Below are positions 42,273 through 45,854 of a DNA stretch of 64,000 nt, piece by piece; positions within the stretch are counted from its first letter, which is position 1, and each line of letters starts with the position of its first letter. The position numbers and the translations under genes are program-made. The DNA is taken from contig JAQCDS010000001.1 of the NCBI GenBank assembly GCA_027620655.1, positions 248,001 to 312,000 of the forward strand, in the 5' to 3' direction. Below the pieces are notes generated by a model. The model had not been told where the DNA came from, did not search any database, and saw only the letters and a list, made by a program, of their open reading frames with translations. The DNA is from Bacteroidota bacterium (lineage in GTDB: Bacteria > Bacteroidota > Bacteroidia > Flavobacteriales > Flavobacteriaceae).

Positions 42273-42280
42273 TACCTTTG
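42273..42280 (+). promoter_or_regulatory. -7 promoter element of the DEAD-box helicase gene
   Basis: TACCTTTG is an exact TAnnTTTG match. Its last three bases form the TTG that is the earliest in-frame start candidate of the helicase gene, so the box and that start are mutually exclusive. Confidence 0.5.
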
Positions 42281-43648
42281 AATAAATTTTTCAATTTGGA
42301 CACTTTCAGCAATTTTAAACTTCCCCCTATTCTGTATGATGCAGTTATGCAACTAGGATTCAAACACCCAACTGCAATTCAAAGTGCTTCTTTTTCAAAA
42401 ATTTGCTCTGGTAGAGACCTGATTGGTATTGCACAAACAGGAACTGGAAAAACAATGGCCTACACCTTACCATTACTAAGAAACATTACACAACCCTCTC
42501 AAAGTTCTCCACGTATTTTAATTCTTGTGCCTACAAGAGAATTGGTGTTACAAGTGGTTGAATCAATTGATAAACTAAGCAAAGAATTACCGTTTCAAAT
42601 TGTTGGAATTTTTGGTGGGACAAACATCAATACACAAAAAAAACAAATTGAAAATGGTGCAGATATTGTGGTCGCAACCCCTGGCCGACTTTATGATTTG
42701 GCCGTTAGCAGAGCATTGCGACTGAAAAATATACAAAAACTAGTTATTGATGAAGTCGATGTGATGCTCGATTTGGGATTTAGACACCAGCTTATAAATA
42801 TTTTTGATTTACTCCCAGAGCAACGTCAAAACATTATGTTTTCAGCAACAATGAATTCAGAGGTCGAAAATATTATTTCAAACTTTTTTAGAAACCCCAA
42901 TAAAGTATCCACTGCACTTTCGGGAACTCCGCTTAAAAATATTAAACAAACGCGTTTTAATGCACCGAATTATAATTCAAAGCTCAATCTTTCATTGTTT
43001 CTGTTGGCTAAAAAAGAAGCGTTCAAAAAAGTACTGATTTTCGTCGACCAAAAACGTATAGCCGACCGATTATTTGAAGCACTAGAGCTTAATTTTAGAA
43101 ATGAATGTGGTGTGCTTCACTCCAATAAATCGCAAAATTACAGGCGCAATGCTATTGAAGAATTTAAAAGTGGAACCTACAAAATTTTAGTCACCACAGA
43201 TCTGATGGCACGGGGTATAGACATAAATGAAGTTTCTCATGTTATTAGCTTCAATACACCAGAGTTTTCAGAAAATTACATGCATCGCATTGGTCGTACT
43301 GGACGAGCTCAAAAACAAGGGGAAAGCATATTGCTATCAACAAAAAAAGAACAAGAATTTAGGATTCAAATTGAGCGTTATATGAATTTCGAAATAAAAG
43401 TTTGTGAGTGGCCTGCTGAAGTGGAACTATCAAATGAATTGATGCCTGAGGAACGGAAAATTGTAAAGGAGCGGTATAATCCAAACCAAAAGAAAAATGA
43501 TGATGTTCCTGGACCTGCATTTCATGAAAAAAAGGAAAAAAATAAAAAGGTAAATCTTGGTGGATCCTACAAAAGAACTATTGGAAAAAAATATAAAAAA
43601 CCAAAAACAAGAGGGGACAAAAATTTTAATCGCAAAAAACGGAAATAA
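42278..43648 (+). CDS. DEAD-box RNA helicase
   Basis: This 456-residue superfamily 2 RNA helicase has the Q-motif GFKHPTAIQ, motif I AQTGTGKT near residues 54-61, VPTRELVLQVV, TPGRLYDLA, motif II as DEVD (not DEAD) near 156-159, motif III SAT, and motif VI HRIGRTGRAQK. The C-terminal tail is strongly basic (KKYKKPKTRGDKNFNRKKRK), suited to RNA binding. The protein would act in ribosome assembly or RNA turnover. The start is uncertain: TTG 42278 overlaps the promoter box, while the next TTG (42293) would give a product five residues shorter and close to the Q-motif. The stop abuts the end of the convergent sigma gene frame. Confidence 0.92.
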   Translation: MNKFFNLDTFSNFKLPPILYDAVMQLGFKHPTAIQSASFSKICSGRDLIGIAQTGTGKTMAYTLPLLRNITQPSQSSPRILILVPTRELVLQVVESIDKLSKELPFQIVGIFGGTNINTQKKQIENGADIVVATPGRLYDLAVSRALRLKNIQKLVIDEVDVMLDLGFRHQLINIFDLLPEQRQNIMFSATMNSEVENIISNFFRNPNKVSTALSGTPLKNIKQTRFNAPNYNSKLNLSLFLLAKKEAFKKVLIFVDQKRIADRLFEALELNFRNECGVLHSNKSQNYRRNAIEEFKSGTYKILVTTDLMARGIDINEVSHVISFNTPEFSENYMHRIGRTGRAQKQGESILLSTKKEQEFRIQIERYMNFEIKVCEWPAEVELSNELMPEERKIVKERYNPNQKKNDDVPGPAFHEKKEKNKKVNLGGSYKRTIGKKYKKPKTRGDKNFNRKKRK

Positions 43649-44245
43649 TTAAGCAAATTTCAACTCTTCGAAATCTGCTACCCTATAATTTTTAATAATT
43701 TTATTTTTGATGCGTTTCAACTTCATTTTGAGAGCACTTTAGCCTAGATTATACACTTCGGTTATTTCTCTTATGGTCATATGACCACAATATTTTAGCA
43801 AAACTAGCTTTTGTTCATGTTTTGGTAATAAGCTAATTGCAAGTTTTAATCGTACTAATTGATGCTCATCAATAATACAAGAGTTGTAATTATAACTAAA
43901 AAACTCTTCACTTAATCTTTCTGGGTCAATTAGTTTATTTTCAAATTTTCTGTATTCAATATTTCGTTTGTAATTGATACAATAGTTGTGTGTAAAACTA
44001 TACAACCAAGTTGAAAATTTTGACTTAAACAAGAAGGTGTCTAACTTTAAAAATACTTTAAAAAATATTTCTTGAGAGACATCTTCTGCATCTTGTTTGT
44101 TTTTAAAAAAGTTAAGGCATCGACCATATACAACTGAATAATAACGCTGATGTAAGGTTTCAAAAAGATGTGTTTCTTCCTTATGAATGATGGCAAGAAC
44201 TAGTGCCTCGTCGGTGTATTGGTATTTTAGGTCGTGTGGATTCAA
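43649..44245 (-). pseudogene. ECF-type RNA polymerase sigma factor gene interrupted by an in-frame TAA
   Basis: The frame from TTG 44245 encodes sigma region 2 (FLKLDTFLFKSKFSTWLYSFTHNYCINYKRN) and most of region 4 (LLPKHEQKLVLLKYCGHMTIREITEVYNLG), then a TAA at 43739-43741. Reading on in the same frame, SALKMKLKRIKNKIIKNY is exactly the missing recognition helix and tail, and the frame then ends at 43649, flush with the stop of the convergent helicase gene. Related sigma factors have a Glu here (NLGESA), so GAA to TAA is the likely change. The truncated protein would lack the DNA-recognition helix of region 4. It may be a recent pseudogene, an error, or read-through. No anti-sigma gene is adjacent. 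Confidence 0.85.
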
Positions 44246-44405
44246 AGCGATTTGGGTGGCTTTTGCACTTTACATTTATGGGTGCTATGTTGGAAATATT
44301 AATTTTGTTTAATCAAATTGTTTAAATATTAGACAATACATTGTGAATCATTCTTCAAAATATACAGTTTTTTTTAACAAAAAAAAATAAATAAAATTTA
44401 TAAAA

Positions 44406-44453: not shown

Positions 44454-45854
44454 TTAGATATGCAATGCTCTATTTTCGGTTGCGGCAAGTGCAGCTTCTT
44501 TTATGGCTTCAGTAAATGTTGGATGTGCATGAGACATTCTTGAAATATCCTCTGCAGATGCACGAAATTCCATAGCAACTACAGCTTCTGCAATTAGATC
44601 GGCACAACGTGCTCCAATCATATGAACCCCCAAAATTTCATCGGTTGTATGATCGGCTAAAATCTTTACAAATCCGTCCAAATCCATACTTGCACGGCTC
44701 CTTCCTAAAGCACGCATTGGAAACTGCCCAATTTTATAGGCCACTCCTTCTTCAGTTAGTTGTTCTTCTGTTTTTCCAACAGCAGCCACTTCTGGCCATG
44801 TATAGACAACACCAGGAATAAGGTTATAATTTATATGTGGTTTTTGACCTGCAATGGTTTCGGCAACAAAAACACCTTCTTCTTCTGCTTTATGTGCCAA
44901 CATTGCTCCTCGAACAACGTCGCCAATGGCGTATATATTTGAAGCAGATGTTTGCAAATGTTCATTCACATTTACTTGACCACGTTCATTTAATTCTACT
45001 CCAGCAGCTTCGGCATTAAGCCCCGCTGTATAAGCACTTCGACCTACAGATACCAAACAATAATCACCTGCAAAAGTAACGGTTTCTCCTTTTTTGTTTT
45101 CGGCAGTTACTGTTACGTTATCACCTTTGCGTATTACTGAAGTTACTTTATGGGAAGTGTTAATATTAAATTTTTGCTTTTTCAGGACTTTATTGAGTTC
45201 TTTTGATAGACCTTTATCCATTGTTGGAATGATACGATCCATATATTCAATAACAGTGACTTCTGAGCCAAGACGCTTATAAACTTGACCGAGCTCTAGA
45301 CCAATTACTCCCCCTCCGATAATGATAAGGTGATTTGGTATTTCTTTGAGTTTTAAGGCTTCAGTTGATGTAATGATACGTTCTTTATCGATTGAAGCAA
45401 AAGGTAGTTCAGAGGGCTTGCTTCCTGTGGCAATGATGGTGTATTTGGCCTCAATTTCTTGAGAAGTATCTCCATTTATGGTAATATGTGTTGCGTCTTT
45501 GAAAGCGCCAACGCCTTGATAGACCTCAATATTGTTTTTCTTCATTAAAAACTCTATTCCTACTGTTGTTTGATTAACAACAGATTGTTTTCTTGCCATC
45601 ATTTTTTCAAGATTGACTTTTACTTCTCCAGGAAGTTCAATACCATGCGTATCAAAATGTTTTACAGCATCTTCAAAATGATGAGAAGAATCCAATAAGG
45701 CTTTACTTGGAATACAACCTACATTTAAACATGTTCCCCCCATAGTGCTATATTTTTCAATAATCGCAACACTTTTTCCAAGTTGAGCACAACGAATAGC
45801 TGCTACATATCCGCCAGGGCCAGAGCCAATTACAGCAACATCATATGATTTCAT
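44454..45854 (-). CDS. lpd: Dihydrolipoyl dehydrogenase (second copy)
   Basis: This 466-residue E3 flavoprotein has GSGPGGY at residues 11-17, the redox disulfide C42/C47 in GGTCLNVGCIPSK, the second nucleotide-binding GGGVIGLELGQVYKRLG near 182-198, AIGDVVRGAMLAHKAEEEG near 312-330, and the catalytic SHAHPTFTEA near the C-terminus. The YSTMGGTCLN variant is the form usual for the 2-oxoglutarate dehydrogenase-associated E3; that assignment is an inference. It is monocistronic with its own terminator. It differs clearly from the copy at 23.4-24.8 kb (different active-site flank), so the two are old paralogues. Confidence 0.95.
   Translation of the reverse strand: MKSYDVAVIGSGPGGYVAAIRCAQLGKSVAIIEKYSTMGGTCLNVGCIPSKALLDSSHHFEDAVKHFDTHGIELPGEVKVNLEKMMARKQSVVNQTTVGIEFLMKKNNIEVYQGVGAFKDATHITINGDTSQEIEAKYTIIATGSKPSELPFASIDKERIITSTEALKLKEIPNHLIIIGGGVIGLELGQVYKRLGSEVTVIEYMDRIIPTMDKGLSKELNKVLKKQKFNINTSHKVTSVIRKGDNVTVTAENKKGETVTFAGDYCLVSVGRSAYTAGLNAEAAGVELNERGQVNVNEHLQTSASNIYAIGDVVRGAMLAHKAEEEGVFVAETIAGQKPHINYNLIPGVVYTWPEVAAVGKTEEQLTEEGVAYKIGQFPMRALGRSRASMDLDGFVKILADHTTDEILGVHMIGARCADLIAEAVVAMEFRASAEDISRMSHAHPTFTEAIKEAALAATENRALHI

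Follow-up and report, generated by a model that had tools for sequence, protein, structure and literature searches.

The genes cfrX (84 aa, with no demonstrated function) and cmpX (encoding a mechanosensitive channel) are assigned to the SigX regulon of Pseudomonas aeruginosa, and cmaX–cfrX–cmpX are located upstream of sigX in Pseudomonas (excerpts of PMC7641640). A link between the MscS homologue cmpX and the P. aeruginosa SigX regulon is also given in an excerpt of PMC10965496. A gene set of similar content occurs in the family of the genome studied here (G000). Of 26 same-family genomes from outside the genus, 11 have a clear relative of the sigma factor gene described below (36–42% identity, E ≤ 3e-29), and at all of these loci (L014–L024) an ORF of ~60 residues and then an MscS-like channel gene come after the sigma gene. 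The channel protein of one of them (G018) matched the Pfam MS_channel families. The ~60-residue ORF shows by eye the motif NPF....VP..LK.KVM.D.A.AKL; no match was obtained for the one representative scanned against Pfam, for the one scanned against NCBIfam, or in a plasmid search with this ORF. The likeness to sigX/cfrX/cmpX lies in content only, namely a small ORF and an MscS-like gene beside a sigma gene. The partners are downstream of the sigma gene in the family whereas the Pseudomonas genes are upstream, and the ~60-residue ORF is at most a putative counterpart of CfrX. The listings and abstract openings covered by our literature search held no description of a sigma/small ORF/MscS set in Bacteroidetes, and this family-level set, with its content like that of the Pseudomonas SigX locus, is the more useful by-product of the analysis.

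The locus in the window (the whole stretch of DNA analysed, 64,000 nucleotides) differs from the Pseudomonas SigX locus in that the sigma gene is truncated and both partners are lost. From their sequences, we take the flanking genes to be lpd (dihydrolipoyl dehydrogenase), a DEAD-box helicase gene and pabB. The outer flanks are the same in G018, where the set lies between lpd and the helicase gene plus pabB, and a single ORF of 572 residues on the opposite strand separates it from lpd. A small ORF and an MscS-like gene were found at none of the six other genus loci searched. In the window neither of these two hallmarks of a SigX–CfrX–CmpX type locus stands beside the sigma gene, and there is no room for partners behind it because the helicase gene sits flush. 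Across the whole G000 genome, four small-ORF queries gave no convincing relative (best E 0.078), and the only MscS-type match elsewhere is distant (23% identity). The best NCBIfam match was SigX (NF007222, PRK09640), with 79.8 bits for the window protein, 89.6 bits for its intact ortholog in G008 and 107.2 bits for the G018 protein, all well below the curated cut-off of 194 for this equivalog family.

An in-frame stop codon in the ECF sigma factor gene

The sigma frame begins with TTG on the minus strand, encodes 168 residues and is then interrupted by a TAA, which reads TTA on the plus strand (Table 1). The frame continues for 29 codons to a second TAA, which adjoins the helicase stop codon (43646–43648); by coordinates, the same flush end is present in G008 and G009. 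The truncated product retains the region 2 of a functional ECF sigma factor, which is the main core-binding domain of sigma factors, since it matched Pfam Sigma70_r2 with 49.8 bits (cut-off 24). The same scan of the 168-residue product gave no region 4 match, and the recognition helix that a functional ECF factor carries is thus missing from it. When the frame was translated through the stop (with X at this position), positions 3–53 of the 54 in the Sigma70_r4_2 profile were matched with 23.3 bits, just below the cut-off of 25.7, compared with 28.0 and 30.9 bits for the intact G008 and G003 orthologs. The intact G008 protein is also alignable over both sigma regions with SigW, the structure of which has been solved. 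Judging from the alignments and from established knowledge of region 4.2, the stop falls in the turn that leads into the final helix of the helix-turn-helix, and the recognition helix is absent from the predicted product.

The tail can be aligned with its intact counterparts in 17 relatives (six from the same genus and 11 from elsewhere in the family) and is therefore no chance extension; 16 of its 28 residues aligned with G008 are identical. These results bear out the original prediction that the stop removes the recognition helix and leaves region 2, that the frame behind it is the missing end of region 4, and that the natural end of the gene abuts the convergent helicase gene. Glu had been predicted at the stop column, and 15 of the 17 relatives have it, the exceptions being G028 (Gly) and G013 (Ala). 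RNA folding around the stop gave no signal (z 0.15). The final codons of the tail also form part of a terminator-like hairpin, which may be a separate cause of their conservation. Among named records, the best match of the sigma protein was CANNCM010000002.1 from an uncultured Flavobacteriaceae bacterium (76% identity).

Table 1 Features of the sigma factor locus and other interrupted frames. Plain coordinates refer to the window; C13 and C1 are contigs of G000. "Passing" refers to the survey rule given in the text.
Feature	Position	Strand	Basis or remark
lpd (presumed name), upstream of the sigma gene	44454–45854	−	ORF; same neighbour in 6/6 genus orthologs
Conserved 5′ region: TTAAACAAA box (44304–44312); AAAGC/GCTTT inverted repeat (44259–44263, 44244–44248)	44244–44313	−	Alignment of 7 genus genomes
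Sigma head: region 2, linker and first part of region 4; TTG start at 44245	43742–44245	−	Pfam Sigma70_r2, residues 31–95
In-frame TAA ending the ECF sigma frame after residue 168	43739–43741	−	Sequence; Glu codon in 6/6 same-genus orthologs
29-codon tail: recognition helix of region 4.2 and C-terminal end	43652–43738	−	Alignment with 17 relatives
Natural end of the sigma gene, second TAA	43649–43651	−	Sequence, ORFs and translation
DEAD-box helicase gene (presumed name), convergent	42278–43648	+	ORF
LysM-domain protein gene, passing in-frame TAA	15332–15334 (C13:263332)	+	Frame conserved past the stop
HAD-family hydrolase gene, passing in-frame TAA	32870–32872 (C13:280870)	+	Frame conserved past the stop
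ComM-like gene (presumed name), interrupted	C13:81136, outside the window
T9SS-sorted protein gene, interrupted	C13:62373, outside the window
Acyltransferase gene, interrupted	C13:400282, outside the window		Loses only the last 13 codons
ORF with TAG	C13:199816, outside the window		Weakly supported ORF
T9SS sorting domain, interrupted by TAA	C1:17876, outside the window

Orthologs, flanking regions and loss of the gene

Ten other genomes of the genus (G001–G010, making 11 with G000) were compared. Six of them have an ortholog of the sigma gene, 52–76% identical and with an open frame of 203–212 codons, so the gene is not dispensable for all members of the genus. All six are intact and carry Glu (GAA or GAG) at the stop position. 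The 11 family-level relatives are also open, nine of them with Glu at this column, and a stop at the column was found in none of the 17 relatives. The original prediction was open to refutation by a truncated form conserved in relatives; none of the six same-genus orthologs is truncated, so the short form is not conserved.

The helicase gene adjoins the sigma gene in G005, G006, G008 and G009, and not in G003 and G004. The TTG start is kept in all seven genus genomes that hold the sigma gene (G000 included), as are the TTAAACAAA box and, downstream of it, the AAAGC...GCTTT inverted repeat, which has a loop of 7–10 and reaches into the TTG start codon. Either an RNA hairpin or N-terminal coding sequence could underlie this repeat.

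In G002, G007 and G014 (the last from another genus of the family), lpd is directly followed by pabB, with neither the sigma nor the helicase gene between them. These genomes are 83%, 78% and 93% complete, respectively, and the lpd–pabB junction itself is observed. G001 (87% complete) and G010 (74%) gave neither a sigma ortholog nor a matching lpd gene, and they are thus uninformative on the presence of the sigma gene. The lpd protein tree placed G000 beside the intact G008 (89/89) and joined G002 and G007 to G004 (80/83), a genome that carries the sigma gene. The lpd tree from codon positions 1 and 2 again grouped G002, G007 and G004 (100/99) and left G000 without a resolved position. Because of this placement, the break of the sigma gene in G000 and its loss in G002 and G007 were most likely separate events.

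Other interrupted frames in G000

The G000 assembly consists of 1,901,799 bases in 18 contigs with 34.5% GC and no N (completeness 99.76, contamination 0.02). In one contig pair, 379 genes of G008:C2 were compared with contig C13 of G000, and 377 genes were used in the reverse comparison. A stop was classed as passing if it had at least 15 aligned residues before it and at least 10 after it within 40, each at least 40% identical; the rule was fixed after the list of stops had been inspected. In G000, 27 stops in 24 genes were inside alignments, and seven, in seven genes, passed (six TAA and one TAG). The 20 failing stops comprise 17 that fall within 24 codons of the start of the G008 ORF and probably reflect wrong start choice, one located three codons from an end, and two (TGA and TAG) in the frame at C13:438229. 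The reverse comparison gave 14 stops in nine genes, of which three stops in two genes passed, all of them TGA. Frame changes were seen in 4 of the 379 genes in G000 and in 3 of the 377 in the reverse comparison. Three of the four in G000 are within the first ~50 codons and probably sit ahead of the true start; the fourth is an out-of-frame deletion of roughly 46 bases in a glycosyltransferase gene (C13:411065).

The HAD, LysM and acyltransferase families were assigned by scans of the G008 proteins, and the gene at C13:81136 is presumably ComM/YifB-like. Judged by family, the interrupted genes look dispensable. A genome-wide coding-potential scan for interrupted frames, which is too weak for short tails, left 14 candidates after a strict filter. 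Two of these were already in the survey (C13:62373 and C13:438229), one is apparently new (C1:17876), and the other 11 look by eye like adjacent genes. We judge the interruptions in G000 to be an ordinary load of young pseudogenes and not the mark of a changed code. Among the relatives, the acyltransferase gene of G002 (L136, G002:C45) has a TAG at the same codon as the TAA of G000, and the last ~13 residues of this protein may therefore be dispensable.

Age of the stop codons

With G009, G005 and G006 as outgroups, the sigma tail (24–28 codons) has 1, 1 and 1 amino acid changes unique to G000 versus 5, 2 and 3 unique to G008, and the sigma head has 12, 10 and 11 unique to G000 versus 6, 7 and 7 unique to G008. 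Since the tail has evolved no faster than in the sister genome G008, the sigma stop should be either young or an assembly error. For five of the seven interrupted genes in the survey, pooled (outgroup G009; the comM-like head only partly covered), G000 and G008 have 24 vs 24 changes in the tails and 25 vs 19 in the heads. The HAD tail alone differs, having evolved faster in G000 (14, 16 and 15 changes vs 8, 8 and 5 in G008 with the three outgroups). Overall, the substitution counts give no indication that selection has been relaxed behind the stops, which suggests that the stops are mostly recent, or errors, or read through.

Interpretation of the stop codon

The probable explanation, in our view, is that a recent nonsense mutation inactivated a dispensable ECF sigma gene. 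As expected of a nonsense pseudogene, every ortholog in the genus is intact and the frame behind the stop is alignable throughout the relatives. The locus resembles the nonsense pseudogenes of small bacterial genomes in that the frame is conserved around one stop and some relatives are without the gene, and it is unlike typical ones only in that the decay would have been caught very early. The sigma gene heads the three-gene set (sigma gene, ~60-residue ORF and MscS-like channel gene) in the family-level relatives, and in the proposed course of events loss of the partners from the locus in the genus would have made the sigma factor less needed. The stop would then have arisen before the recognition helix in G000, where conservation of the tail is still good. 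The normal ECF mode of promoter recognition would be lost, and the sigma regulon (probably one of envelope or membrane stress, by analogy with Pseudomonas SigX) would not be served, because a protein without region 4.2 would be unable to read the −35 element. The short product would presumably be misfolded or degraded, and the likely end point is deletion, as in G002 and G007. If so, the locus clearly illustrates the loss of an alternative sigma factor in a flavobacterium with a small genome, with the partners going first, the stop coming next and the gene being absent from some relatives. The annotated sigma factor of G000 is probably non-functional, and thus no regulon should be assigned to it.

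Speaking against decay, the tail shows no relaxation, which would fit a very young stop and equally an assembly error, and the 5′ region and the start are conserved as well. We give a smaller though appreciable chance to a sequencing or assembly error in a gene that is intact in the organism. Such an error would agree with the conservation of the sigma tail, which matches that in the sister genome, and with the larger number of clean in-frame stops in G000 than in G008 (7 vs 3). However, the completeness, the low contamination and the lack of any N argue for a sound assembly; frame changes are few and about as frequent as in the reverse comparison, and the glycosyltransferase deletion is no one-base slip. 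Furthermore, the apparent dispensability of the interrupted genes is what would be expected under selection, and the faster evolution of the HAD tail in G000 is unexpected from error. A recent nonsense mutation remains the better account of these observations.

It is very improbable that the TAA is read through or recoded, in a programmed or leaky manner, with full-length and truncated sigma factors both made. The interruption of several conserved frames on the contig, with TAA as six of the seven passing stops and conserved sequence on both sides, together with one more TAA, located on C1 in a T9SS sorting domain, would be in line with such a process. However, at least six TAA out of seven is within chance given the codon usage (P 0.083–0.087), and TAA also terminates 275 of the 377 genes. 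No tRNA with a UUA anticodon, i.e. no suppressor, is present among the 29 tRNAs found, a set that is incomplete. The seven stops share no single context by eye (TCT precedes three and GGC two), and, as noted above, no relative has a stop at the column. We see equally little prospect for the broader idea that TAA read-through in a few dispensable genes is tolerated or put to use in this species, which would give a common, core-binding short sigma factor and a rare full-length form. TAA recoding as the cause of the interruptions on the contig was rejected, as one passing stop is TAG, the frame at C13:438229 contains TGA and TAG, chance can account for the proportion of TAA, and the tRNAs found include no suppressor.

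The truncated protein, with its intact region 2, is scarcely credible as a putative functional regulator that would occupy core RNA polymerase in competition with other sigma factors, given that none of the six orthologs is truncated and that half a region 4 should fold badly. The dominant inhibition suggested in the original prediction, which a whole region 2 would allow in principle, is unlikely and hypothetical. In the sigma-H holoenzyme, contacts with the polymerase are made by region 4 and the linker as well (excerpt of PMC6411747), and on the basis of these contacts the affinity of the short form for polymerase should fall.

The tRNA calls of G000 include a second tRNA-Gln(TTG) at C1:6634–6726, which is 93 bases long versus 74 bases for the one on C7 and may be false or odd.
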